Assembly (NCBI RefSeq): GCF_013408795.1
Contig: NZ_JACCCC010000001.1
Coordinates: forward strand, 3,224,001 to 3,288,000
Source of the DNA: Spinactinospora alkalitolerans
GTDB lineage: Bacteria > Actinomycetota > Actinomycetes > Streptosporangiales > Streptosporangiaceae
Direction of reading: 5' to 3'
Length of the DNA stretch: 64,000 nucleotides
This document shows, one piece after another, positions 50,459 to 63,862 of this stretch (position 1 is its first letter; the number at the start of each line of letters is the position of its first letter). The notes under the pieces were generated by a model. The model did not search any database and was not told the origin of the DNA. It saw only the letters and a program-made list of their open reading frames with translations. Both the position numbers and the translations under genes were made by a program.

Positions 50459-51436
50459 CTACCGCGTCCGGCGCGGGGTGAGCCGGCGGATCGGTTCGTT
50501 CAGCTCGCGCCGGTAGAAGTCGATGAACCCGTCGGAGTCGGGGCCGGCGTTCTGCATGACCAGCCGGTCGAAGCCGGCGTCGACGAACTGCCGGGCGGTC
50601 TCGATGTGGCGGTCCGGATCCGGTCCGCAGGCGAACAGCGTCCGGACGTCCTCCTCGCGGACGGTGGTGGTCGCCGCGGCGAAGTTGACCGGGTTGGGCA
50701 GCTCGCTCATCACCTTCCACCCGGTCAGGGCCCACCGCGAGGTGTCCAGGACGGCCCGCGCCGCGGTGTGCTCGTCGGCGGCCCAGGCCACGGGTACCTC
50801 GGCGTAGCCGGGACCGGTGCCGCCGGCGTCGTGGTAGTACCGGACGATCTCCGGCTTCGCCTCGTTCGCGAACAGTCCGTCTCCGAGCTCGGCGGCGATC
50901 CGCGCCGCGGCCTCCCCGCTGGCCGCCACCGCGATCAGCGGCGGCTCCTCGGGAAGATCGAACACCCGGGCGTCCTCCAGCCGCAGGTGCCGGCCCTCGT
51001 AGGAACGGTACCCGCCGCGCCACAGCAGCCGGATGATCTCCAGCGCCTCGCGCAGCATCTCGTGGCGCACCCGGACCGAGTCGGGGAACCCGCGGCCCAC
51101 GACGTGCTCGTTGAGCCGCTCCCCCGATCCGACGCCGAGGACGAACCGGCCGCCGGAGAGCAGGGCGAGCGTCGCGGCGGCCTGGGCGATGATCGCCGGA
51201 TGGTAGCGCACGGTCGGACAGGTCACGCCGCTCACCAGCCCGATACGCTCGGTCCGCGCCGTGATGGCGCCGAACACCGTCCAGCTGAACGACGAGTGCC
51301 CCTGGACGTCCAGCCACGGGTGGAAGTGGTCGCTCATCTCCACGAAGTCGAACCCGGCCTGTTCGGCCAGTACCGCCTGCCGGACCAGTTCGTCCGGCCC
51401 GAAGGCCTCCGACGCCAGCTTGTAACCGATCTCCAT
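50459..51436 (-). CDS. F420-dependent LLM-class oxidoreductase (FGD-like)
   Basis: This 325-residue TIM-barrel enzyme of the luciferase-like family belongs to the TIGR03557-type F420 glucose-6-phosphate dehydrogenase group. It has EIGYKLASEAF, SDHFHPWLDVQGHSSFSW, VTCPTVRYHPAIIAQAAATL, LGVGSGERLNEHV and LFACGPDPDRHIE. It probably transfers hydride between a sugar phosphate or alcohol and F420. The ATG at 51436 follows GAGGGA. It is a single gene ended by the large palindrome. Confidence 0.9.
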   Translation of the reverse strand: MEIGYKLASEAFGPDELVRQAVLAEQAGFDFVEMSDHFHPWLDVQGHSSFSWTVFGAITARTERIGLVSGVTCPTVRYHPAIIAQAAATLALLSGGRFVLGVGSGERLNEHVVGRGFPDSVRVRHEMLREALEIIRLLWRGGYRSYEGRHLRLEDARVFDLPEEPPLIAVAASGEAAARIAAELGDGLFANEAKPEIVRYYHDAGGTGPGYAEVPVAWAADEHTAARAVLDTSRWALTGWKVMSELPNPVNFAAATTTVREEDVRTLFACGPDPDRHIETARQFVDAGFDRLVMQNAGPDSDGFIDFYRRELNEPIRRLTPRRTR

Positions 51437-51675
51437 CCGTTCCCTCACCCCCGAAAAGCCCCGCGCGGTCGTCCCGGCGCCGCCTCGTGACGGGATGCCG
51501 CGAACGCGGCGGGCGGATGGGCCCCGCGCCGCCGTGCGTGCGTGGAAGGCGCACCCGGCGCGACGGCGCCGCGCGAAAGCGGCCGCACCGCCGGTCAGCG
51601 GTTCCCCCCGCACTGCATCGCAGCGTAGGACGGGGTCCGGCCGAACGGGAAGCGGCGCGCCGGGGAGGGCCTGAT

Positions 51676-51885
51676 GTGATCGGTCCGGGGAGCGGCGCCG
51701 TCCTGGGCTGCAACTACGGCTCCAGCGTTCCCTCGGTCGACTCCCCCCGGCTGGCCCGGATGTATCTGTCGGGGCGGCTGCCACTGGACCGGATGATCGG
51801 CCGCAGCGCCCGGCTGGAGGAGGCCGACGACGCCCTGGACGACCTGCGCAACGGCCGCGGCCTGCGCACCATCCTGCACATGTGA
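51676..51885 (+). pseudogene. C-terminal fragment of a zinc-type alcohol dehydrogenase
   Basis: The 69-residue frame reads VLGCNYGSSVPSVDSPRLARMYLSGRLPLD..IGRSARLEEADDALDDLRNGRGLRTIL, the last ~65 residues of medium-chain zinc alcohol dehydrogenases. The zinc-binding and NAD domains are missing upstream. A GTG at 51676 with GGAGGG at eight bases could still allow translation. The stop codon is part of a perfect hairpin shared with the opposite gene. It is most likely a deletion remnant. Confidence 0.65.
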
Positions 51886-52171: not shown

Positions 52172-52687
52172 CTACCGGTCGGCCTCCGGGGCCGGGATGA
52201 GCCGGCCACCGTCGTAGAACCGACCGCCGCTGTAGACCATGGGCGGCGCCGAACTGTACTCGGCCTCGACCACGCGTCCCATGAAGACGGTGTGCGTGTT
52301 CGTCTGCAGCCGCTCGCCGATCCGCGCGACCAGGCTCGCGGAGGTGCCTTCGATGATCGGGGTCTCGGCCGTCGCCGGCCGCCAGGCGACTCCGGAGAAC
52401 TTGTCACCGGACTTGGATGCGAAGCGCGCGACGATGTCGGCCTGGTCGGCCGCGAGGATGTTCACGCCGAAGTGTGTGGAGGCGAAGAGCGAGGGATAGG
52501 TCGAAGACGTCTTCTGCACGCAGACCAGGACCAGCGGAGGGTCGAGGGATACGCTGGAGAACGCGTTGACCGCCAGGCCCCGGGGACGGCCCTCGACGTT
52601 GGTGGTGACGATGGTGACGCCGGAGACGAAGGACCGATGGACCTGCTTGAGTGTCTCGATGTCGACGGCCTCAGACGTGAGGGGCAT
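52172..52687 (-). CDS. tgnA: Flavin reductase, reductase component of a two-component monooxygenase
   Basis: This 171-residue FMN-binding split-barrel reductase has FVSGVTIVTTNVEGRPRGLAVNAFSSVSLDPPLVLVCV, the GVNILAADQ segment, and MGRVVEAEYSSAPPMVYSGGRFY. It supplies reduced flavin to a partner oxygenase, here the LLM protein at 55629. The ATG at 52687 follows GGAGGAA. It is third after the BCCT transporter and SnoaL-like genes on the minus strand. The tgnA label rests on gene context and is tentative. Confidence 0.85.
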   Translation of the reverse strand: MPLTSEAVDIETLKQVHRSFVSGVTIVTTNVEGRPRGLAVNAFSSVSLDPPLVLVCVQKTSSTYPSLFASTHFGVNILAADQADIVARFASKSGDKFSGVAWRPATAETPIIEGTSASLVARIGERLQTNTHTVFMGRVVEAEYSSAPPMVYSGGRFYDGGRLIPAPEADR

Positions 52688-52715
52688 GGTTCCTCCATTC
52701 GCAGTGGTCGATTGA

Positions 52716-53147
52716 TCAGGCACCGGACTCGAGGCTGATGATGCCGAGAGCGGTGAGCAGGGCCCGAGGGTCCCAGGTGACGTGTTCGGCATGGATCAAT
52801 CCGGAGTCGAGGTGGGCGAACGTGGCTCCCGAGACGGCCACGGAACGACCCGTCGGCGGGACGCCGAGCATGGAGCCGCTGTGCGTTCCCGCGCTCTCCC
52901 AGCGAATGGCGATCCGGTCGCCCTCTCTCACCAGATCAACGATGGCTGTCGACAGGTCGGGGAAGGCGGCCCGACAGAGCGCGATGGACTCTTTGAAGGC
53001 TGCAAGGCCCTGGCCTTCGCGGTTGCTCGCCGTGTACCGCAGGTACTGCGGCGCCAGGATCGCATCGAGGGCGTCGACCTGGCCGGTGTTCCATGCGGCG
53101 TGCCAGGCGTCTCGGACCTCGTCCGCCGTCAGGAGGCCGGTGGTCAT
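52716..53147 (-). CDS. SnoaL/NTF2-like ester cyclase-type protein
   Basis: This 143-residue NTF2-fold protein reads EVRDAWHAAWNTGQVDALDAILAPQYLRYT..REGQGLAAFKESIALCRAAFPDLST and GDRIAIRWESAGTHSGSMLGVPPTGRSVAVSG, as in SnoaL-like cyclases. The activity is unknown; within this cluster it could rearrange or hydrolyse a ring-opened intermediate. Its start overlaps the BCCT stop by ATGA. It is not a part of the tgn set that I recall from Acinetobacter. Confidence 0.85.
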   Translation of the reverse strand: MTTGLLTADEVRDAWHAAWNTGQVDALDAILAPQYLRYTASNREGQGLAAFKESIALCRAAFPDLSTAIVDLVREGDRIAIRWESAGTHSGSMLGVPPTGRSVAVSGATFAHLDSGLIHAEHVTWDPRALLTALGIISLESGA

Positions 53148-54703
53148 GCTCTTTCACTCCTTTCCTCCGCCGGAAGAGCGGCGGGCGGGGTTTCCGTGGT
53201 GATCAGCGGGTCGGTCCGCAGGTCTCTCCAGAACGCGACCGCCACGCCGACGATGACGACGATGAAGGGGGCCGAGGAGACGATCACCGTCTGCTGCAGC
53301 GCCTGCAGGCCGCCGGAGAGCAGCAGGATGGTCGCCAGCGCGCCGGTCATGGCGCCCCAGAGCAGCAGAACCGGGATTCGGGGCTGCACCGAGCCCTTGG
53401 TGGTGAGCATGCCCAGTACATAGGTGTTGGCGTCCGCCCCGGAGATGAAGAAAAGCAGGGCGAGCAGGACCACGATGCCGGCGGTGAGGGCGGGCAGCGG
53501 GAATTCGGCGAGAGTCGCGAAGAAGGCGTTGTTGATGTCCTGGGCGGTCTTGCCGGCGATGTCCGTGGCGTGGTTGAGGTCGAGTTCGATGGCCGAGCCT
53601 CCGAAGACCGAGAACCAAGCGAAGAAGGCCAGGCTGGGCGCTCCCAGCACGACGCCGACGAACTGGCGGATCGTCCTGCCGCGGGAGATGCGCGCCAGGA
53701 ACACGCCGACGAAGGCGCCCCAGGAGATCCACCACGCCATCATGAAGAAGGTCCAGCTCTGCATCCAGCCGACGTCTCCGAAGGCCGGCCCGCGCAGGCT
53801 CATCAGGACGAAGTCGTTCACGTACCGGCCGAGCGACTCGAAGAACAGGCTGATCAGGAAGGCCGTGGGGCCCAGGGCCAGGACGAACAGCAGCAGGAGC
53901 GAGGCCAAGGAGAGGTTGGCTTCACTGGTGAAGCGGATACCCCGCTGTACCCCGGAGGCGGCGGACAGGCTGAACAGCGCCGTCACCACGATGATGACGA
54001 TGATCTGGGTGAGCGTTCCGGTCGGGGTGCCGATGAGCCGGTTGAGGCCGTTGTCGATCTGCATGGCGCCCAGCCCCAGCGACGTCGTGGTGCCGAACAG
54101 GGTCGCGAAGACCGCGAAGACGTCGATCGCCGAGCCGAGCGGGCCGGACGCCCGGCGGCCCAACAGCGGGGTGAACATGGCGCTGACCAGCCCTGGACGC
54201 TGCTTTCGGTACATCGAGTAGCCGAGGGCCAAGCCGAAGGTCGCAAAGATCGCCCATGCGTGCAGGCCCCAGTCGTAGAACGAGTACTGCAGGGCGAGCA
54301 CGGCCGCCTGCGGGGTCTGGGGCTCGGCGAGGCCGTGGGGCGGTTCGCTGAAGTGGGAGATCGGTTCGGCGACCCCGTAGGAGACCAGTCCGATCCCCAT
54401 GACGGCACACAGGATCATGGCGATCCACGTGTAGGTCTTGAACTCGGGCCGGTCCTCGTCCCGTCCGAGGCGGATGCGGCCGTAGCGGCTGCACGCCAGT
54501 GCGACCAGGCCGATCAGGAGCAGAAGCGGAAGGGTGAGATAGACCCACCCGAATCCGCCCGTGATCCGGTCGAGCGCGGCGCTCATCAGCGCGTTCTGGT
54601 TGTCCGGCGCGAGGACTCCCCACGCCACGAACAGCGCGGACACCCCGATCGACACCCAGAACACCGCGCCGAGTCCGTGTCGTTGCGGCGGCGCGCTCCT
54701 CAT
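53144..54703 (-). CDS. BCCT-family transporter for a betaine-type compound
   Basis: This 519-residue, 12-helix carrier of the betaine/carnitine/choline family has the signature segment SWTFFMMAWWISWGAFVGVFLARISRGR and VSYGVAEPISHF, with conserved Trp residues of the binding box. Such carriers import quaternary ammonium compounds. It is the first gene of the minus-strand operon, with promoter TTGACG-17-TAGCGT (54805-54777). Its presence beside a flavin monooxygenase system suggests an N-methylated heterocyclic betaine such as trigonelline. Confidence 0.93.
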   Translation of the reverse strand: MRSAPPQRHGLGAVFWVSIGVSALFVAWGVLAPDNQNALMSAALDRITGGFGWVYLTLPLLLLIGLVALACSRYGRIRLGRDEDRPEFKTYTWIAMILCAVMGIGLVSYGVAEPISHFSEPPHGLAEPQTPQAAVLALQYSFYDWGLHAWAIFATFGLALGYSMYRKQRPGLVSAMFTPLLGRRASGPLGSAIDVFAVFATLFGTTTSLGLGAMQIDNGLNRLIGTPTGTLTQIIVIIVVTALFSLSAASGVQRGIRFTSEANLSLASLLLLFVLALGPTAFLISLFFESLGRYVNDFVLMSLRGPAFGDVGWMQSWTFFMMAWWISWGAFVGVFLARISRGRTIRQFVGVVLGAPSLAFFAWFSVFGGSAIELDLNHATDIAGKTAQDINNAFFATLAEFPLPALTAGIVVLLALLFFISGADANTYVLGMLTTKGSVQPRIPVLLLWGAMTGALATILLLSGGLQALQQTVIVSSAPFIVVIVGVAVAFWRDLRTDPLITTETPPAALPAEERSERA

Positions 54704-54776
54704 CTCGATCCCCCTTGAGCGCGACAGGGGTCAGGGGGCTCAGTGATGGACGGCACAGTACGTTGCATGGCACATG

Positions 54777-54899
54777 ACGCTAAATTCTGCGTGTCGCTCC
54801 GTCAAGAGGGCAGGTTAATTTTCCATCTAACTCGATTTTCGGAGGTAGATCCGTAGTTCCGTCACCGCCTTGACGACCTCCACATCTCTCGCCTAGCTT
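54777..54899. promoter_or_regulatory. Divergent promoters of the BCCT and GntR-led operons
   Basis: On the minus strand TTGACG (54805-54800) and TAGCGT (54782-54777) are spaced by 17 bases. On the plus strand TTGACG (54870-54875) and TAGCTT (54894-54899) are spaced by 18 bases, with the GntR start only seven bases beyond, so that message is nearly leaderless. The bases between are rich in A and T and may hold the GntR operator. Confidence 0.65.
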
Positions 54900-54906
54900 C
54901 TGTGCC

Positions 54907-55629
54907 ATGCAAGAGATTTCGGACAGGTCGACGTCCGCTCCGGCCGACCGGCCCTCAGGAACGCGGGCTCGTGTCCTGGAGGACCTGCGCAACGCGATCA
55001 TCAGCGGCGCGCACCCGCCGGGCACCCCGCTCTCGGAGGGCGCGCTGGCCGAGGCCTACGGTGCGAGCCGCACCCCCGTCCGCGAGGCGCTGAAGCAGCT
55101 CCAGGTCGAAGGGCTCGTCGAGATCCGCGCCCGGGTCGGCACCTTCGTGCGGCAGCCCTCCCGGCGCGAGGTCGTGGAGCTGTTCCAGATCAAGGAGATG
55201 CTCGAAGGACTGGGGGCCCGCCTGCTCGCGCGCCGCGGGAGTGTTCCCGAGCTCGATCTGCTCCGGCACAACATCGCCGCATCCGAGGCCGCGGTGGCTT
55301 CGGGCGACGCCGACCGCTACGCACACCTGGTGCACGAGTTCCACGACCTCATCCTGCAGGGCGCCGACAACACCAGGCTGCTGGCGCACTACCGGCAGCT
55401 GATGAACCAGCTCGCCTACCACCGGCTCGTCATCAGCTCGCTGCGGCGCCCCGGGCGCCCCGGCGCCTCCCTCGGTGAGCACCGGACCGTGGTCGAGCGG
55501 ATCGCGGAGAAGGACGGTTTCGGCGCCGAGCTGGCCATGCGCGACCACGTCCGGGCCAGCGAGCGCGGGGTCATGGCCGACCCGGCGCCGGGCGGGCCCG
55601 GCGAGGACGACGAAAGAAAGGACACTTGA
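54907..55629 (+). CDS. tgnR: GntR-family (FCD/FadR subfamily) regulator
   Basis: This 240-residue regulator has a winged helix at ~20-85 (LRNAIISGAHPPGTPLSEGALAEAYGASRTPVREALKQLQVEGLV) and an FCD ligand-binding domain (~95-225) with helical repeats and metal-type His residues (HEFHDLI, GEHRTVVERI). It stands between the two divergent arms of the cluster and its stop overlaps the LLM start by TGATG. It probably represses both arms until the substrate or its product binds. The symbol is by context. Confidence 0.9.
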   Translation: MQEISDRSTSAPADRPSGTRARVLEDLRNAIISGAHPPGTPLSEGALAEAYGASRTPVREALKQLQVEGLVEIRARVGTFVRQPSRREVVELFQIKEMLEGLGARLLARRGSVPELDLLRHNIAASEAAVASGDADRYAHLVHEFHDLILQGADNTRLLAHYRQLMNQLAYHRLVISSLRRPGRPGASLGEHRTVVERIAEKDGFGAELAMRDHVRASERGVMADPAPGGPGEDDERKDT

Positions 55630-56765
55630 TGCGATTCTCCATCTTCCACGCACTGGGCGCCCCCGGCCGGCTGGGCGAGTACGCCGCGGTCATGGACGAG
55701 GCCCGGGAGTTCGCCTGCGCCGCGGATGCGGCCGGCTACTGGTCGGTGTGGTACACCGAGCACCACTTCGGCCACGAGGGGTACGAGATCACCCCCAACC
55801 CCGTGCTCATGGGCGCCGACATCGCCGCGCGCACCCGGAACATCCGCATCGGGCAGGCCGCCGCGATCTCCACCTTCTGGCACCCGTTGCGGCTGGCCGA
55901 GGACATCGCACTACTGGACCAGCTCTCCGGGGGCCGCGTCGAGGTCGGCGTCGGCCGGGGCCTGTACGGGCGCGAGGCGCTGAACCTGAACAGCGCCGCC
56001 GACCCGCGCGACCAGGAGCAGAACCGGGCTCTGTTCGACGAGGGCCTGGAGATCATGACCAAGGCGTGGAAGGGCGACTTCTTCGACCACAAGGGTCGGT
56101 TCTATGAGTTTCCCGCGCCGGGCGTGAAGTGGGAGCACCCCCTGTCTCCTCCGAGCGAGGAGTTCATGGCCGATGGCGAGATCAGCCGCCTCGCCGTGGT
56201 CCCCCGCACCCTGCAGCGCCCCCACCCGCCGCTGTGGCAGGTCATCGACAGTCCCCGGTCGATCGCCTCAGCGGCCGAAAGCGGCATCCAGGGACTCTTC
56301 TGGCTGCCGCCGGTCTCGGCCCTCAAGAGCCGGTTCGAGCTGTACCGCGACCGGGCGAGCGAGGCCGCGGGCCGAGAGTTCGCGCTGGGTGAGGGCATCG
56401 GCCTGGTCCGCGACGTCTACGTCGCCGACACCATGGAGCAGGCACGCCGCGATTTCGAGGAATCGCTGCTGACCACCTACAAGTGGGTGACTCACTGGCG
56501 AGGGCTGAGCAACCTGATGGAGGAGGGGGAGGAACCGACCCCCGACCACCGGCTGTCCTTCGACTTCCTGCACCCGCGCAACCTGCTGGTGGGAACCCCC
56601 GAATACGTCGCCGAGAAGATCCACGAGCTGCGCACCGAACTGAATCTCGAGCATCTCCTGCTGTGGACCACCCACCCCGGCCTGGAACACGCCAAGGCGA
56701 TGCGCAGCCTGGAGCTGTTCACCGAGAAGGTCATGCCCCGCTTCGCCAACGGCGGGGAGGGGTGA
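55629..56765 (+). CDS. tgnB: LLM-class flavin monooxygenase, trigonelline oxygenase-like
   Basis: This 378-residue bacterial-luciferase-type monooxygenase has SVWYTEHHFGHEGYEITPNPVLMGADIAARTRNIRIGQA, ISTFWHPLRLAEDIALLDQLSGGRVEVGVGRG and LWQVIDSPRSIASAAE. It needs reduced flavin from a partner reductase, present at 52172. In the tgn system of Acinetobacter baylyi, such an oxygenase opens the pyridine ring of trigonelline. Orthology is inferred from context. It is coupled to tgnR and to the AA_synth gene after it. Confidence 0.85.
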   Translation: MRFSIFHALGAPGRLGEYAAVMDEAREFACAADAAGYWSVWYTEHHFGHEGYEITPNPVLMGADIAARTRNIRIGQAAAISTFWHPLRLAEDIALLDQLSGGRVEVGVGRGLYGREALNLNSAADPRDQEQNRALFDEGLEIMTKAWKGDFFDHKGRFYEFPAPGVKWEHPLSPPSEEFMADGEISRLAVVPRTLQRPHPPLWQVIDSPRSIASAAESGIQGLFWLPPVSALKSRFELYRDRASEAAGREFALGEGIGLVRDVYVADTMEQARRDFEESLLTTYKWVTHWRGLSNLMEEGEEPTPDHRLSFDFLHPRNLLVGTPEYVAEKIHELRTELNLEHLLLWTTHPGLEHAKAMRSLELFTEKVMPRFANGGEG

Positions 56766-57361
56766 AGGTGCCCCGGATCCGCAAGATCGTCACCCTCACC
56801 GATGAGCTGCTGAGTGAACCGGGTGGGCCGTCGATCACGCCCACGCGTAGAGTCGCGGCGGCGGCCGTTCTCACCAACCCGTGGGCCGGACTGCCCGTCG
56901 GGGCCGATCTGGGAACGGACTCCGCCGAGGCGGCGGCCCGGCTGGCGGTGTGCCTCACGGAACGGCTCCTCGCCCCCCTCGGAGGCCCGACCGGTCTCCA
57001 GGCTTTCGGCAAAGGCGCCGTCGTCGGAGTCGACGGAGAGATCGAGCACGGGGCCGCTCTCATCCACACCCCCTATTTCGGGAACCTGTTCCGCGAACTG
57101 GTGCAGGGGACGTCGATCATCGCCTTCGCCGACGAACGATCCGCCCCGGGCGCCCCGCTGACCGTGCCCATGTGGCACAAGACCGAGGCCGCCACCCGAT
57201 CGCACTACCAGACGGTGCAGGTGAAGATCGCTGACGCACCGCGCCCGGACGAACTGATCATCATCGCCGCGGGAGCGGCCGGCCCTCGGCCGCACCCGCG
57301 GATCGGAGACCGCACCACCGATGCGCGCATCGGCCTGAAAGACATGGAGCACGCACTGTGA
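56762..57361 (+). CDS. AA_synth (PF06684-type) protein, first copy
   Basis: This 199-residue protein of the so-called amino acid synthesis family shows ITPTRRVAAAAVLTNPWAG and AFGKGAVVGVDGEIEHGAALIHTPYFGNLFR. It is paralogous to the next gene, and the two overlap by GTGA. The name of the family is historic; members occur in catabolic clusters and their activity is not established. The GTG start at 56762 overlaps the LLM stop. The paired, coupled genes suggest a heteromeric complex. Confidence 0.85.
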   Translation: MKVPRIRKIVTLTDELLSEPGGPSITPTRRVAAAAVLTNPWAGLPVGADLGTDSAEAAARLAVCLTERLLAPLGGPTGLQAFGKGAVVGVDGEIEHGAALIHTPYFGNLFRELVQGTSIIAFADERSAPGAPLTVPMWHKTEAATRSHYQTVQVKIADAPRPDELIIIAAGAAGPRPHPRIGDRTTDARIGLKDMEHAL

Positions 57362-57909
57362 ACGTCCGCAGGATCACGACGACCGTCGAGGAACTGCTCA
57401 TCGAGGGAGGGCGCGAGGTCACACCGCATGCCGAGGTGGCCGTGGTCCTCGCCGTCATCGACAACCCCTGGGCCGGACAGGGATTCGTCGAGGACCTCGG
57501 ACCCCGAATCGAAGAGGTCGCCCCCCGCCTGGGCGCCCTGCTCGCGCCGCGCGTGCTCGAGGCGCTCGGCAAGCCCGCCGAAGCCTACGGCAAAGCCGCC
57601 ATCGTCGGACTCGACGGAGAGATCGAGCACGGCTCCGGCCTGATCCACACCCTGAAGTTCGGCGACCACTTCCGCAACGCCGCCAAGGCGACCACGCTGC
57701 TGCCCGCAGTGGAGAAGCGCGCCCCTGCGGGCACGGTCTTCGACATTCCGCTCAAGCACATCACCGACGCCACCACCCGGTCCCACCACCAGACGGTGGA
57801 GGCGCGCGTTCCCGATGCGCCCCGCCCCGACGAGATCGTCATCGGCCTTGCCGCAGCCGCGCAGGGACGGCCGCACGCTCGTCTCGCGCCGCTGTCCGCC
57901 GACCGTTGA
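57358..57909 (+). CDS. AA_synth (PF06684-type) protein, second copy
   Basis: This 183-residue paralogue of the preceding gene has the same blocks, including NPWAGQG, AYGKAAIVGLDGEIEHGSGLIHTLKFGDHFRNAAKAT, PLKHITDATTRSHHQTVE and PRPDEIVIGLAAA. Conserved His/Asp/Glu residues occur in GEIEHG and SHHQT. Its start codon is GTG and its stop overlaps the next start (TTGA). A role in processing a ring-fission intermediate, possibly as an isomerase or hydrolase, is inference. Confidence 0.85.
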   Translation: MNVRRITTTVEELLIEGGREVTPHAEVAVVLAVIDNPWAGQGFVEDLGPRIEEVAPRLGALLAPRVLEALGKPAEAYGKAAIVGLDGEIEHGSGLIHTLKFGDHFRNAAKATTLLPAVEKRAPAGTVFDIPLKHITDATTRSHHQTVEARVPDAPRPDEIVIGLAAAAQGRPHARLAPLSADR

Positions 57910-58691
57910 TCAGCGCACAGATCACCGGCGAGGGCAGTGATCTGGTGCTCCTGCACGGTGTCGGGCTGGACCGCAGCATGTGGGACCGCTGCCTGCCCGA
58001 CCTGGCCGAGCTGCACCGCGTCCGCGCGCTCGACCTCCCCGGGCACGGGCGCTCCGGGGAGGTTCCTGAGGGGGTCACCGCCGGTGACATCGCAGACGCC
58101 GTGCAGCAGGAGCTGCCGGAACCGGTGCACCTCGTCGGGTTCTCGCTGGGCGCGCTGATCGCTCAGGAGCTCGCCCTGCGCGCTCCGAGCCTGGTCCGCT
58201 CGCTCACTCTCGTCAGCTCGGTCGCCGCGCGCACGCAAAAGGAACGCGGCGATGTCCTCGGTCGCCTCGAACTCGCTGCGACCGATTTCGAGGCGACCGT
58301 GGAGGCGGCGGTACTGCGGTGGTTCGACGAGTCGTGGCGGCGAAGGGAGCCGGCGCTCGCCCAGCGGACGCGGTCGACCCTGCTGGCCAACGACCGCGAG
58401 CAGTATCTGCGCTGCTACCGCGTCTTCGCCACGGCGGACGCGTCCTTGTGGCCCCGGTTGGGTGCGATCACCGCACCCACGCTCGCGGTCACCGGCGCAC
58501 AGGATCCGGGATCCACGCCGCGAATGGCCCGCGACCTGGCCGCCGCCATCCCCGGCGCCCGCAGCGCCGTGGTGCCCGAGACGCGCCACCTCCTGCCGTT
58601 GGAACGTCCCGATGACCTTGTCCGCTTGATTCTCGACCACGTAGGGAGCGTCGACCGTGAGCACCTCGACACCGGTACCGACACGGCATGA
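57906..58691 (+). CDS. tgnD: Alpha/beta-hydrolase, TgnD-like
   Basis: This 261-residue serine hydrolase has LVLLHGVGLDRSMWD for the oxyanion hole, the nucleophile at about Ser80 in GFSLGAL, and a late His in TRHLLPLERPD. In the trigonelline pathway an enzyme of this fold hydrolyses N-methylformamidomethylene-succinate to succinate semialdehyde, formate, methylamine and CO2. The start is TTG at 57906, overlapping the AA_synth stop; no better start is nearby. It overlaps the dehydrogenase gene by 35 bases. Confidence 0.82.
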   Translation: MISAQITGEGSDLVLLHGVGLDRSMWDRCLPDLAELHRVRALDLPGHGRSGEVPEGVTAGDIADAVQQELPEPVHLVGFSLGALIAQELALRAPSLVRSLTLVSSVAARTQKERGDVLGRLELAATDFEATVEAAVLRWFDESWRRREPALAQRTRSTLLANDREQYLRCYRVFATADASLWPRLGAITAPTLAVTGAQDPGSTPRMARDLAAAIPGARSAVVPETRHLLPLERPDDLVRLILDHVGSVDREHLDTGTDTA

Positions 58692-60156
58692 GCACTACAT
58701 CGGCGGATGCTGGACTCCGCCCGCCGAAGGAGGGTACTTCCCCAGCATCGACCCCTCTTCCGGAGCGGTGCACTACGAGGCGGCCGAAGGAACGAAGACC
58801 GATGTCGAGCGGGCCGTCGCGGCGGCGCAGGCGGCGTTCAGGGACCCCGCATGGCGTGACTTGAGCCAGACCCGCCGCGGCGCGCTGCTGCGACGCATGG
58901 GTGATCTGATCGGCGAGAACGCCGAACGCCTCGCGTTGGAGGAGAGCCGTGACAACGGCAAGCTTCTGCGGGAGATGCGCGCCCAGCTCGCCGGGCTGCC
59001 GGAGTACTTCTACTATTACGCCGGATTGGCCGACAAGATCCACGGCCAGGTGATCCCGGCGGCGCAGCCCAGCCTGCTCAACTACACGGTCCGCGAGCCG
59101 GTCGGTGTGGTCGGGGCGATCACGCCCTGGAACTCGCCGCTCCTTCTCACCGCCACGAAGCTCGCTCCCGCGCTGGCCGCGGGCAACACCATCGTCGTCA
59201 AGCCCTCCGAGCACACCTCCGCCTCCCTCCTGACGCTGGCTCCCCTGTTCGAGCAGGCCGGGTTTCCTCCGGGGGTCGTCAACGTCGTGACCGGCGACGG
59301 GGCAAAGGCGGGCGCCGCCCTGGTCGAACACCCCGACGTGGCGAAGGTGAGCTTCACCGGAAGCAGCGCCACCGGCGCCGCGATCGCTCAGACCTGCGGG
59401 AGCCGGCTGGTTCGGGCGACTCTCGAACTGGGCGGCAAGTCGCCCAACATCGTCTTCGCCGATGCCGACCTCGCCAGTGCCGCCATGGGAATCGTCGCCG
59501 GCATCTTCGCGGCGGCCGGACAGACCTGCGTCGCCGGCAGCCGTGTCTTCGTGCAGCGCGAGGTCTACGACGAGGTCGTCTCCAAGGTGCGCGATCGGGC
59601 GGCGGCGATCCGCGTCGGCGACCCCCTTGACGCCGCCACCGAACTCGGCCCGCTCGCGACGGCGGACCAGCGCGACAAGGTCGAGGAATACGTGCGCATC
59701 GGCGTCGAGGAAGGTGCGACGCTCCTTTACGGCGGCAAGCGGCCGCAAGTCCAAGGGGACGGGTTCTACTTCGAGCCGACGATCTTCGTCGACACCGCCA
59801 ACGACGCCCGGATCTGCCGGGAGGAGATCTTCGGCCCCGTCGTCGTGATCATGCCCTTCGACTCCGAAGAGGAGGTCACGGCCTTGGCGAACGCCACCGA
59901 GTACGGTCTGGCCGCAGGCGTGTGGACGCGGGACCTCAACCGCGCCCACCGTATGGCCGCCAACCTCGAGGCGGGAACGGTGTGGATCAACACCTACCGT
60001 TCCATGTCGCCGATGTCGCCGCGCGAGGGCTTCGGAAGCAGCGGTCTCGGGGTCGAGCACGGGACCGAGGTGGTGAAGGAGTACACCCGCATCAAGAGCG
60101 TGTGGGTCAACACGAGCGAGGAACCCACGGGTGATCCGTTCGTACTGCGATCCTGA
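58657..60156 (+). CDS. tgnC: Aldehyde dehydrogenase, TgnC-like
   Basis: This 499-residue NAD-dependent aldehyde dehydrogenase has ITPWNSPLLLTATKLAPALAAGNTIVVKPSE, FTGSSATG, ELGGKSPN with the general-base Glu, and the catalytic Cys near residue 291 in GQTCVAGS. In the tgn scheme an ALDH of this kind oxidises the lactol/lactone product to MFMS. The GTG start at 58657 follows AGGGAG and lies within the end of tgnD. It is the last gene of the operon. It could equally be the succinate-semialdehyde dehydrogenase. Confidence 0.85.
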   Translation: MSTSTPVPTRHEHYIGGCWTPPAEGGYFPSIDPSSGAVHYEAAEGTKTDVERAVAAAQAAFRDPAWRDLSQTRRGALLRRMGDLIGENAERLALEESRDNGKLLREMRAQLAGLPEYFYYYAGLADKIHGQVIPAAQPSLLNYTVREPVGVVGAITPWNSPLLLTATKLAPALAAGNTIVVKPSEHTSASLLTLAPLFEQAGFPPGVVNVVTGDGAKAGAALVEHPDVAKVSFTGSSATGAAIAQTCGSRLVRATLELGGKSPNIVFADADLASAAMGIVAGIFAAAGQTCVAGSRVFVQREVYDEVVSKVRDRAAAIRVGDPLDAATELGPLATADQRDKVEEYVRIGVEEGATLLYGGKRPQVQGDGFYFEPTIFVDTANDARICREEIFGPVVVIMPFDSEEEVTALANATEYGLAAGVWTRDLNRAHRMAANLEAGTVWINTYRSMSPMSPREGFGSSGLGVEHGTEVVKEYTRIKSVWVNTSEEPTGDPFVLRS

Positions 60157-60445: not shown

Positions 60446-61612
60446 TCAATCGGCTTGCCGGAACTCCCTCGCGAACTCCCGGCGGACCGCCTCGGTGTGG
60501 CGGCCGAGTTCCACGCCCGGGCTGCGGACGGCGCCGGGACTCCTGCTGAACTTGGGCACCACGTTCGGCATGGGGACGGGTTCGGTGTAGCCGGGCACGG
60601 GCATCCGGACGATCATGTCGCGTGCGGCGTACTGCTCATCGCCGACGATGTCCTCCGGGGTGTAGATCCGGCCGCGCGGGATCCTGTACTCGTCGAGCCG
60701 CGCTTCGAGACGCTCGACTGCCAGCGCGCTCGCCCACCGCTGAATGATCTCGTCGAGTTCCGCGGCGTTCCTGCCGCGCGCCTGATGGGTGCTGAAGCGG
60801 TCGTCCGACTTCAGCTCCTCGCGCTCCATGGCCTCGCAGAGGCGACGGTAGAGGCCGTCGCTGTTAGCCGCGATGAGCACCTCGTGTCCGTCCGCGCTGG
60901 TGTAGACGTTCGACGGCGCGACACCAGGCAGGGTGCTGCCGGTCCGTGTTCGGGTGACACCGCCGAGTTCCCAGTCGGATATGAGTGATTCGGTGAGCGC
61001 GAAGGCGCTCTCGTACAGGGCTACGTCGACTTCCTGGCCGTGTCCGCTGCGGTCGCGCTCGTACAGGGCGGCGAGCGTGCCGTTGACCGCGAAGAGGCCG
61101 GCGAGTTCGTCGCCGAGGCTGACTCCGGCCCGGACCGGGGGCCTGTCCGGATAGCCGGCGAGTGCGCGGAGCCCGCTCATGGCCTCCGCGACGCTCCCGA
61201 ACCCCCGGTCGGCGGCGCGCGGCCCGGTCTGCCCGAAGCCCGAGACGTGGACCATGACGAGGCGCGGATTGTCCTCGGCCACGGATTCGTAGTCCAGCCC
61301 CCAGGAGGCGAGCCGTCCCGGCGCGAAGTTCTCGATGACGACGTCGACCTGCCGGAAGAGGTCAGCGGCGAGCGCACGGTCCCCCTCCTGCCTGAGGTCG
61401 AGCACGATCGACTCCTTGTTGCGGGCCAGCGAGGGCCACCACAGGCTCTGGCCGTTCTCGAGGACGCCCCAGCTCCGTATGGGGTCGCCATCGGGGGGTT
61501 CGATCTTGATCACCCGTGCCCCGTAGTCACCCAGGAGCTGGCCGGCGAACGGTCCGGCGATGAAGCCTCCGATCTCAACGACGGTGATTCCGTCCAAGGG
61601 CCCGTTCGTCAT
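60446..61612 (-). CDS. CaiB/BaiF-type class III CoA-transferase
   Basis: This 388-residue family III CoA-transferase has GITVVEIGGFIAGPFAGQLLGDYGARVIKIEPPDGDP at the start, NKESIVLDLRQ, and the catalytic Asp near residue 168 in VSLGDELAG. It would move CoA from a donor thioester to a carboxylic acid. It is next to a TetR regulator, and an HpaB-fold enzyme and an acyl-CoA dehydrogenase are divergent from them. The acid is unknown. The start ATG at 61612 has GGAGG upstream. Confidence 0.92.
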   Translation of the reverse strand: MTNGPLDGITVVEIGGFIAGPFAGQLLGDYGARVIKIEPPDGDPIRSWGVLENGQSLWWPSLARNKESIVLDLRQEGDRALAADLFRQVDVVIENFAPGRLASWGLDYESVAEDNPRLVMVHVSGFGQTGPRAADRGFGSVAEAMSGLRALAGYPDRPPVRAGVSLGDELAGLFAVNGTLAALYERDRSGHGQEVDVALYESAFALTESLISDWELGGVTRTRTGSTLPGVAPSNVYTSADGHEVLIAANSDGLYRRLCEAMEREELKSDDRFSTHQARGRNAAELDEIIQRWASALAVERLEARLDEYRIPRGRIYTPEDIVGDEQYAARDMIVRMPVPGYTEPVPMPNVVPKFSRSPGAVRSPGVELGRHTEAVRREFAREFRQAD

Positions 61613-61651
61613 CGGCCACCTCCTGCGTCTGCCCGGGTGAAGCAGCGGCTC

Positions 61652-62305
61652 CTACGTCCGGTTGCACCCGCACGCACATCCGGGGACGGGATGGAAGACG
61701 GTGCGGTACCAAAGGGCGCTGAGCGTGTCGATCGCGGTTTCGTCGTCGGGTACGTCCACATCCGGATCACCGCCCATCGCCATCCATGTCCAGCAGAACG
61801 ACTCCAGCATCGACACCAGGGCCGAGGCGAGGGTGCCATGGTCCAGGTCGACCCGATGGCCGGTCCGCTCCGCGCTCCTGATCCCGGCGAGCACGCCGCG
61901 GATCCCGGCGGCACGGTTCGCCTGCCAGCGGGCGGCGAACTCCGGATCGGTCATGGACATCTGGAACACGCCGATCATCTCCGGCAGGTACTTGCGGTAC
62001 GTGAGCCAGTAAGCACGGACCGCCCCTCTGATGCCTTCGAGCGGATCGCCGGTCCTGCTCTTCAGGGAGGCTTCGAGCACCTCGGTCGAGAACTGGTCCA
62101 GCAGGGCTTCGAGGATCTCCTCCTTGTTCTCGTAGTAGTTGTAGAAGGAGCCCGGCGAGCGCCCGGCCACTTCCGCGATGTCTGAGATCTTCGCGTTGAA
62201 ATACCCCTTCTCCGCGAACACCTGCCGCGCCGCTCCCAGGAACGCGGCTTCGGTTCGCTGCCCTTTCGGTGTGGCCGCCACCGTGTCCAACCCCCGATTC
62301 CTCAA
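61652..62305 (-). CDS. TetR-family transcriptional regulator
   Basis: This 217-residue regulator has the TetR helix-turn-helix (AARQVFAEKGYFNAKISDIAEVAGRSPGSFYNYYENKEEILEAL pattern, ~25-70) and a helical ligand-binding part. The C-terminal end has Cys residues (GCACGCN). The start is uncertain: TTG at 62305 has GGAAGG at five bases, while GTG at 62281 is possible. It is divergent from the HpaB-fold gene and likely controls both sides. An imperfect inverted repeat at 62399-62429 is the candidate operator. Confidence 0.88.
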   Translation of the reverse strand: MRNRGLDTVAATPKGQRTEAAFLGAARQVFAEKGYFNAKISDIAEVAGRSPGSFYNYYENKEEILEALLDQFSTEVLEASLKSRTGDPLEGIRGAVRAYWLTYRKYLPEMIGVFQMSMTDPEFAARWQANRAAGIRGVLAGIRSAERTGHRVDLDHGTLASALVSMLESFCWTWMAMGGDPDVDVPDDETAIDTLSALWYRTVFHPVPGCACGCNRT

Positions 62306-62398
62306 GCGCGCCTTCCAGAGCGCGCCGCATATCGTCGTCCGAGTCTAAATACAGCGAGTGTCGCCGCCGCCGCATGTCGTCTCCCATCGACGCTTGTC

Positions 62399-62429
62399 AT
62401 TTCCTGAAACTGAACTTAGCATCAGAAAT
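62399..62429. promoter_or_regulatory. Candidate TetR operator upstream of the HpaB-fold gene
   Basis: ATTTCCTGA (62399-62407) and TCAGAAAT (62422-62429) form an inverted repeat with one unpaired base. It is placed in the AT-rich part of the divergent promoter. The assignment is tentative. Confidence 0.35.
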
Positions 62430-62479
62430 ATGGCGCGGCAAAGCACCCGATCCCACCAGCCCCCCGAGGAGACGCCTTC

Positions 62480-63862
62480 ATGGTGATGATGACGAAGGCC
62501 GAGTACCTGGCCTCGCTCAACGACGGCCGACGGATCTTCGCCGACGGGGAGGAGATCAAGGACCTCACCACCCACCCGCAGTTCGCCACCTCTCTGGAGC
62601 TCGTCGGCGACGGATACGACAGGCATCACCGACCGGGCCGCGGCGCGTGCGGACCGTACTTCTCGATTCCGCACAGCCGGGAGGAGCTGAAGGAGCTCCT
62701 CGAAACGCTGCTCGGTTGGGACATGGTGACCGTGACCACTTCGCAGGGCCTGCTCGCGCTGCTCACCGCGGCCGCCCGGATGCGGTCGGCCCACCCCGAG
62801 TACGCCAAGCGCATCGAGGACTACTTCGACCACTGCAAGGACAACGACCTGCGCTGCGTGCAGGCGATCACCGACGCCAAGGGCGACCGCACGGTGGCGC
62901 CGGGCAAGCAGGAGGACCCGGACGTCTACACCCGCATCGTCGAGCGCCGTTCCGACGGCATCGTGGTGCGCGGCGCCAAACTGCACATCTCCTCGGCCTC
63001 GATCAGCCATGAACTGGTCGTCATGCCGACGAAGAAGATGAAGCCCGGCGAGGAGGACTGGGCCGTCGCCTGCGCCATCCCCGTCAACGCGCCCGGCGTC
63101 CGGATCGTCAACACCAACTACGCGCCGCGCGACCGACATGAGGACTTTCCGCACAGCTCCCGCCACAACATGCCGGAGGGCTTCGTCCTGCTCGACGACG
63201 TCTTCGTGCCGAACGAGCGCGTCTTCCTGGCCGGGGAGACGGACCACTCCGCCACGTTCGCCCACTCCCTCGGCCTGTGGGAGCGCCTGGGCGGAACCGC
63301 GCACCTGGTCGAGATCGGCGACACCCTGGTCGGCCTGGCGCAACTGATCGCCGAGTCCAACGGGACCCAGCGCATCTCCCACATCCGGGAGAAGATCGCC
63401 GAGATGGTCATCTACGCGACCCTGGTCCGCGCGGGCCTGGAGGCGGCGATCGCCAACGCCGAGCCCAGCCCGGAGGGCTGGTACTTCCCCAGCGAGCTGT
63501 TCACCAACGCCGCCAAGCATTTCGGCGCCGCCGAGTTCAGTCACATGGTCCGGCACCTGCACGACATTGGGGGCGGCTCCATCGTGACCGCGCCCTCCAT
63601 CGCGGACCTGGAGAACGAAGAGGTCGGCGAGCAGATCAAGAAGTACATGCACACGGTGGACGGCGTGGACGGGGAGTACCGGACCCGACTGTTCCACGCG
63701 ATCCGCGACTACACCGCGGACGCCTTCGGCGGCTGGCAGCTGGTCACCATGATCCAGTCGGGCGGCGGCCTCTACGCCCAGCGGCTCGTCTCGCGCAAGC
63801 ACTACGACATGGACAAGGCCAAGGCGCTCGCGCTGGAGGTCGTGAACGGCCCGAAGGGCTGA
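62480..63862 (+). CDS. HpaB-fold protein (4-hydroxyphenylacetate 3-hydroxylase/4-hydroxybutyryl-CoA dehydratase family)
   Basis: This 460-residue protein of the HpaB/AbfD superfamily shows AITDAKGDRTVAPGKQEDPDVYTRIVERRSDGIVVRGAK, HELVVMP, DDVFVPNERVFL and a C-terminal HDIGGGSIVTAPS. The spacing follows 4-hydroxybutyryl-CoA dehydratase, but the three Cys and one His that hold its iron-sulfur cluster are not at the expected places. A FADH2-using monooxygenase is therefore more likely. It starts at ATG 62480 behind GAGGAGA. With CaiB and an acyl-CoA dehydrogenase it may act on a CoA ester. Confidence 0.85.
   Translation: MVMMTKAEYLASLNDGRRIFADGEEIKDLTTHPQFATSLELVGDGYDRHHRPGRGACGPYFSIPHSREELKELLETLLGWDMVTVTTSQGLLALLTAAARMRSAHPEYAKRIEDYFDHCKDNDLRCVQAITDAKGDRTVAPGKQEDPDVYTRIVERRSDGIVVRGAKLHISSASISHELVVMPTKKMKPGEEDWAVACAIPVNAPGVRIVNTNYAPRDRHEDFPHSSRHNMPEGFVLLDDVFVPNERVFLAGETDHSATFAHSLGLWERLGGTAHLVEIGDTLVGLAQLIAESNGTQRISHIREKIAEMVIYATLVRAGLEAAIANAEPSPEGWYFPSELFTNAAKHFGAAEFSHMVRHLHDIGGGSIVTAPSIADLENEEVGEQIKKYMHTVDGVDGEYRTRLFHAIRDYTADAFGGWQLVTMIQSGGGLYAQRLVSRKHYDMDKAKALALEVVNGPKG

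Follow-up and report, generated by a model that had tools for sequence, protein, structure and literature searches.

Trigonelline is a common plant and marine compound. Its degradation in Acinetobacter baylyi ADP1 reportedly follows the tgn pathway, which Perchat et al. are said to have described in 2018. The Acinetobacter locus used here for comparison (L113) encodes a GntR regulator, an AA_synth protein, a hydrolase, a flavin reductase, a luciferase-like monooxygenase (LLM), an aldehyde dehydrogenase (ALDH), an NCS1-type transporter and a succinate semialdehyde dehydrogenase (SSADH), and this gene set presumably agrees with the published description of the pathway. Its records (CAKLQH020000001.1) are labelled 'Acinetobacter phage MD-2021a' (328-379 kb), and they look like bacterial chromosome, not phage. 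In the pyridine (pyr) pathway of Arthrobacter sp. 68b, an LLM and a flavin reductase are said to cleave the ring directly, and a dehydrogenase, a hydrolase and an SSADH reportedly follow. In Sinorhizobium meliloti, a tgn set with an ABC transporter is located on pSymA between nodulation and nif genes (L007), and its LLM is a member of the TgnB clade. Strains of S. meliloti that lack pSymA fail to grow on trigonelline (PMC4207669), and L007 is likely the trigonelline catabolism region. Here, a stretch of 64 kb (the window) from the closed 6.68 Mb chromosome of Spinactinospora alkalitolerans was analysed, and nine genes within 52172-60156 were compared with these systems. With a probability of about 0.65, the nine genes serve the catabolism of trigonelline or a very close N-methylpyridinium carboxylate, and an isofunctional, swapped oxygenase replaces TgnB non-orthologously.

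The nine genes form two divergent groups flanking the gap 54704-54906. The minus-strand group encodes a BCCT transporter, a SnoaL-like protein and the flavin reductase, and the plus-strand group encodes a GntR/FCD regulator, an LLM, two AA_synth proteins, an alpha/beta hydrolase and an ALDH. An earlier note on this DNA had named these nine genes together as a tgn-like cluster, and all nine are confirmed by Pfam. The note had also regarded them as one translation unit with extensive overlaps. Overlaps of 1-4 bases are present at the BCCT/SnoaL, GntR/LLM, LLM/AA1, AA1/AA2 and AA2/hydrolase junctions (AA1 and AA2 are the two AA_synth genes), which makes translational coupling within each group likely; the single unit has to be replaced by two divergent operons. 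The limits of the unit were fixed by a genome of another genus in the same family (G102), which keeps all nine genes in identical order (60-89% identity, the LLM being highest) without the tested flanks. The CoA-transferase, the HpaB-like protein, the SDR, the FUSC-like protein and the second LLM of the window flanks were not found in the G102 locus, and a TetR query gave a single weak partial match there (30% over 74 aa).

The Acinetobacter Tgn-type proteins of L113 were queried against the whole 6.68 Mb genome. Four of them find their best own-genome match inside the cluster: the flavin reductase (97 bits, against 93 for the next match), the LLM (90 against 73), the hydrolase (105 against 48) and the TgnC-type ALDH (461 against 334, a margin of 127). 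The window ALDH is 48-49% identical to TgnC of Acinetobacter, S. meliloti and Leisingera. According to the ALDH tree, it falls together with TgnC in one clade with a support of 99, apart from SSADHs and from the other ALDHs of its own genome. Within this clade the ALDHs of clusters with a TgnB-type LLM and of clusters with an LLM like that of the window (window-type) interleave by lineage, and alphaproteobacterial clusters with the window-type LLM have a proteobacterial TgnC. The AA_synth genes had been regarded in the earlier note as an addition to the tgn set. This idea was rejected, as TgnF of A. baylyi, which helps to oxidize succinate semialdehyde, is a member of the AA_synth family (PMC7913881), and an AA_synth gene is present in the tgn loci of Acinetobacter, S. 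meliloti, Leisingera and Pantoea. The Pfam AA_synth scores of the two window proteins are 189 and 200 bits. The reading of the locus as tgn-like is mostly correct, with support from the four best matches and from the ALDH clade; the oxygenase differs, as it lies outside the TgnB clade.

Identity between the window LLM and the TgnB-type LLMs (Acinetobacter, S. meliloti, Leisingera, Pantoea, Arthrobacter) is only 29-32%. In the LLM tree the window-type and TgnB-type proteins are separate clades, each with a support of 100 in the Shimodaira-Hasegawa-like approximate likelihood ratio test. By both identity and tree, the window LLM is not TgnB. Nor does it cluster with enzymes known to act on a different substrate, an outcome which the earlier note had named as refuting. 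TgnB is more distant from the window type than are an LLM of a Peribacillus plasmid and those of L019 and L020. A profile scan of named genomes gave 480 relatives of the window-type LLM. Among the best 80 of the 480, the identities are 71-80% in Streptomyces, Pseudonocardiaceae and Micrococcaceae, 62-66% in Bacillota, and 51-57% in SAR11 and other marine alphaproteobacteria; in viral contigs, no LLM relative was found. In nearly all Gram-positive loci the window-type LLM is accompanied by GntR, AA_synth, hydrolase, ALDH, a BCCT or NCS1 carrier and flavin reductase. The predicted model of the window LLM has the luciferase fold (mean predicted local distance difference test score 84), and its best match in the PDB is 7bip (E 3.5e-26). 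The nearest solved structures (7bip, 2i7g, luciferases and 3,6-diketocamphane monooxygenase) point to no substrate. Six residues, Tyr114, Glu117, His155, Trp42, Phe84 and Trp347, are invariant in both LLM clades and mostly lacking in the other compared relatives, and these residues may serve as a lead for the active site.

The two oxygenases are exchanged in the cassettes of the Arthrobacter family, Micrococcaceae. In 226 genomes of this family, the TgnB-type LLM is present in 30, the window-type LLM in six, and both in none. As about 0.8 genomes with both would be expected, this absence is not significant alone, and the comparison of cassettes was relied on. The window-type LLM occurs in L050 (Sinomonas humi) and L143-L148, and the TgnB-type LLM in L009 (Arthrobacter dokdonellae) and L149-L162. 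Besides the LLM, both kinds of cassette contain a transporter, a SnoaL-flavin reductase, GntR, AA1, AA2, hydrolase, ALDH and a tautomerase. The window-type LLM is located directly after GntR, and the TgnB-type LLM is located at or near the 3' end. L143 and L157, whose LLMs belong to different clades, share 92% identity in NCS1, 92% in GntR and 94% in ALDH (core mean 90%). L144 and L152, also with LLMs from different clades, share 94% in BCCT, 92% in GntR and 93% in ALDH (core mean 88%). The two LLM types occur together in 0/109 loci; since the loci were collected by LLM query, one LLM per cassette is partly an effect of ascertainment. In a tree built from a concatenation of five backbone proteins, a minimum of seven changes of LLM type is needed, at least five of them forced by strongly supported branches. 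Among these changes is a deep pair of actinobacterial loci, L117 and L065, which do not belong to Micrococcaceae. The transporter type changes eight times in the same tree, and BCCT and NCS1 each alternate equally with both LLM types (11/11 and 7/6). This alternation agrees with a heterocyclic betaine as the substrate. Apart from the oxygenase, the components that encounter the substrate (carrier, regulator and ALDH) stay unchanged, so the two LLM types most likely act on one substrate and deliver one and the same intermediate.

The two kinds of cluster also share a predicted operator. Enumeration of palindromes upstream of GntR gave TTGCATGCAA, and a search for generic FCD-type operator patterns gave nothing useful. 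The motif TTGCATGSCA has two exact matches in the window, where 0.08 are expected, and both are in the BCCT-GntR gap. With at most one mismatch, it is present in 14/14 TgnB-type and 19/21 window-type actinobacterial loci, compared with 3-5% in shuffled sequence. The occurrence in both kinds of locus points to a common operator.

Trigonelline is the substrate that we infer for the window cluster, and every reaction proposed here is taken by analogy from the tgn pathway. The BCCT carrier would import the betaine. GntR would sit on the two TTGCATGSCA sites until the substrate or a product displaces it. Reduced flavin (FMNH2 or FADH2) would come from the flavin reductase together with its SnoaL partner. 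Then the LLM, with reduced flavin and O2, would cut the pyridinium ring beside the nitrogen, and an N-methylformamido aldehyde would be formed; for TgnB, a formamido hydroxybutyrolactone is reported as the product from trigonelline. The ALDH would oxidize the aldehyde to the acid, from which the hydrolase would release methylamine, formate, CO2 and succinate semialdehyde. The semialdehyde would be converted to succinate by one of the three SSADHs whose genes lie outside the cluster. The two AA_synth proteins may assist, as TgnF reportedly assists TgnE.

Several observations weigh against the assignment to trigonelline. The best-match margin of the flavin reductase is only 4 bits, the window hydrolase is about 32% identical to the Acinetobacter hydrolase, and the LLM aligns only weakly with Acinetobacter TgnB (34% identity over 168 residues, with a margin of 17 bits). 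In the literature that could be consulted, no known substrate was found for any member of the window-type LLM family. An SSADH (TgnE) was not found in the window cluster; three candidates lie elsewhere in the genome (52-60% identical to the Arthrobacter SSADH). Furthermore, the TgnB clade may itself hold more than one substrate, since identity between the TgnB-type LLMs of Micrococcaceae and the TgnB proteins of Acinetobacter and S. meliloti reaches only about 50%, and since a TgnB-clade LLM on a plasmid of Rhizobium sp. N324 (L112, about 43% identical to that of S. meliloti) has a different setting. The L112 cluster contains ALDH, flavin reductase, hydrolase, a carboxymuconolactone decarboxylase-like protein, an amino-acid ABC transporter, AA_synth and SSADH, and it probably serves another substrate. 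The main rival, which we consider unlikely, is that the same chemistry serves a different substrate, with the window-type LLM cleaving the ring of some other N-methylated heterocyclic betaine, homarine being the obvious candidate. The ALDH and hydrolase would then give a different end product, for example 2-oxoglutarate with methylamine and formate, and no SSADH would be needed. The separate LLM clade fits this proposal, as do the BCCT carriers, which suit any betaine, the presence of the family in marine SAR11 next to ectoine-utilization genes, and the actinobacterial window-type cassettes, which are without SSADH except beside L034. However, regulator, transporter and ALDH remain at least 90% identical, and the operator remains the same, across the change of LLM type. 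A true SSADH adjoins three window-type clusters (L034, L066 and L085), and no SSADH was found near the TgnB-type tgn loci of Leisingera and Pantoea either. A wider form of the homarine proposal, in which the window-type LLM family is the first gene marker for the breakdown of homarine-like betaines from soil actinobacteria to SAR11, and in which cassettes are retargeted by oxygenase exchange alone, appears doubtful to us.

A pathway for a non-betaine pyridine or another N-heterocycle, like the route of Arthrobacter sp. 68b, is improbable. The pyr pathway reportedly relies on enzymes of these same classes, neutral heterocycles are taken up by NCS1 carriers, and a basal member of the LLM family (L029) is accompanied by an amidohydrolase; on the other hand, BCCT in about half of the cassettes points to a charged betaine, and the ALDH falls in the TgnC clade. 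LLMs, ALDHs and alpha/beta hydrolases are large families, and the genome itself has 20 LLM matches, so that common enzymes could also have come together in a catabolic cluster without any link to pyridinium compounds. Against this stand the four independent best matches of the Acinetobacter cluster within a single 8 kb region, and the conservation of the nine-gene unit with AA_synth across phyla. We regard such an unrelated cluster as very improbable, and trigonelline or a very close relative is preferred.

The coordinates of the features are collected in the table. The open reading frame (ORF) of the flavin reductase opens at 52792, but similarity to the G102 and Arthrobacter proteins sets in at 52687, which makes the latter position the probable start. 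The ORF of the LLM opens with TTG at 55626, and the ATG at 55629 is likely the start. The SnoaL-like protein probably assists the flavin reductase. The two form a single fused protein in Arthrobacter L009 (12533-13471), whereas they are separate neighbours in the window; the fusion suggests that they work together.

Table. Genes and predicted operator sites of the nine-gene cluster in the window
Feature	Position	Strand	Evidence
Flavin reductase, TgnA-like, expected to supply reduced flavin	52172..52687	-	PF01613, Flavin_Reduct 137 bits; 71% to G102 from residue 36 on
SnoaL-like protein	52716..53147	-	PF07366, 103 bits
BCCT transporter (putative betaine uptake)	53144..54703	-	PF02028, 581 bits; NCS1 transporter alternates with BCCT in related cassettes
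Predicted GntR operator 1, TTGCATGGCA	54763..54772	+	Exact TTGCATGSCA match
Predicted GntR operator 2, overlapping the GntR start codon	54903..54912	-	Exact TTGCATGSCA match
GntR/FCD regulator, putative TgnR-like role	54907..55629	+	PF00392 and PF07729; 57-59% to Arthrobacter L009 GntR
LLM-class flavin-dependent oxygenase, proposed ring-cleaving enzyme	55629..56765	+	PF00296, Bac_luciferase 170 bits; clade separate from TgnB; relatives at 53-89% in Actinobacteria, Bacillota and SAR11
AA_synth protein 1, TgnF family	56762..57361	+	PF06684; 52-57% to Arthrobacter AA1
AA_synth protein 2, TgnF family	57358..57909	+	PF06684; 74% to Arthrobacter AA2
Alpha/beta hydrolase, putative TgnD-like role	57906..58691	+	Pfam Abhydrolase; best own-genome match of Acinetobacter hydrolase
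Aldehyde dehydrogenase of the TgnC clade (start position uncertain)	58657..60156	+	Pfam Aldedh 585 bits

The region 60446-63862 adjoins the cluster and contains a CoA-transferase of family III (minus strand), a TetR-like regulator (minus strand) and an HpaB-like flavin monooxygenase or dehydratase (plus strand). These genes were rejected as cluster members, as they are not in the syntenic G102 locus (TetR gave only the weak 74-residue match), and they are perhaps another catabolic unit. The second LLM (50459-51784) was rejected on the same ground. It is of another type, unrelated to the cluster, and falls in a clade of own-genome proteins (L178 and L179). A second AA_synth gene of the genome (L191, G000:C1:2532000-2551000), 48% identical to window AA2, is located near another LLM and an SSADH (60% identical to the Arthrobacter SSADH). 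By eye only, ORFs resembling an ABC transporter, a class-III aminotransferase, a hydantoinase, a nitrilase and F420-synthesis genes are found there, and L191 is possibly a separate pyrimidine- or hydantoin-like pathway.

Loci of window-type LLMs in other phyla have additional genes. In SAR11 (L104 and L110, ~7-16 kb), the clusters adjoin divergent ectoine-utilization-like genes (DoeA/EutD and EutA) and an ABC transporter, and in L110 the LLM and AA_synth genes are separated by an inserted gene for a thiamine pyrophosphate enzyme of the acetolactate synthase kind. In Bacillota (L068 and further loci), the extra genes encode an MsuE/SsuE-like FMN reductase, a protein resembling riboflavin kinase and an isochorismatase-like protein. 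The Bacillota loci also contain a second ALDH, which is about 34% identical to SSADH and nearest to a lactaldehyde dehydrogenase model.

If the assignment to trigonelline is true, a second family of ring-opening oxygenases does trigonelline-type breakdown in Streptomyces, Pseudonocardiaceae, Bacillota and SAR11, and a search with TgnB would miss such loci. The poorly understood AA_synth (DUF1185) family would be tied more firmly to the trigonelline-type pathway. The Micrococcaceae cassettes are a clean natural experiment, in which two unrelated oxygenases have been exchanged at least five times within one set of regulator, transporter and downstream genes. This exchange makes the question of a kept or changed substrate directly testable.

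The window cluster and the Acinetobacter tgn locus have in common a flavin reductase, an LLM oxygenase, a TgnC-clade ALDH, an alpha/beta hydrolase, AA_synth, GntR and a dedicated transporter. The window differs in having an LLM of the other clade, BCCT in place of NCS1, two AA_synth genes, a separate SnoaL protein next to the flavin reductase, a cluster without SSADH and a different gene order. S. meliloti L007 likewise has GntR, AA_synth, hydrolase, flavin reductase, LLM and ALDH in one locus, whereas its LLM is of the TgnB clade, its transporter is of the ABC type, and a NIPSNAP protein and an SSADH are present in the locus. In the pyr genes of Arthrobacter sp. 68b, a two-component flavin oxygenase reportedly cleaves the ring as proposed for the window, but the substrate is said to be uncharged. 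The Micrococcaceae cassettes (L009, L050 and L143-L162) are orthologous to the window over nearly the whole cassette and have the same operator motif. They differ from the window in the fusion of SnoaL to the flavin reductase and in an added tautomerase gene, and L009 and L149-L162 differ further in the TgnB-type LLM at the operon end.

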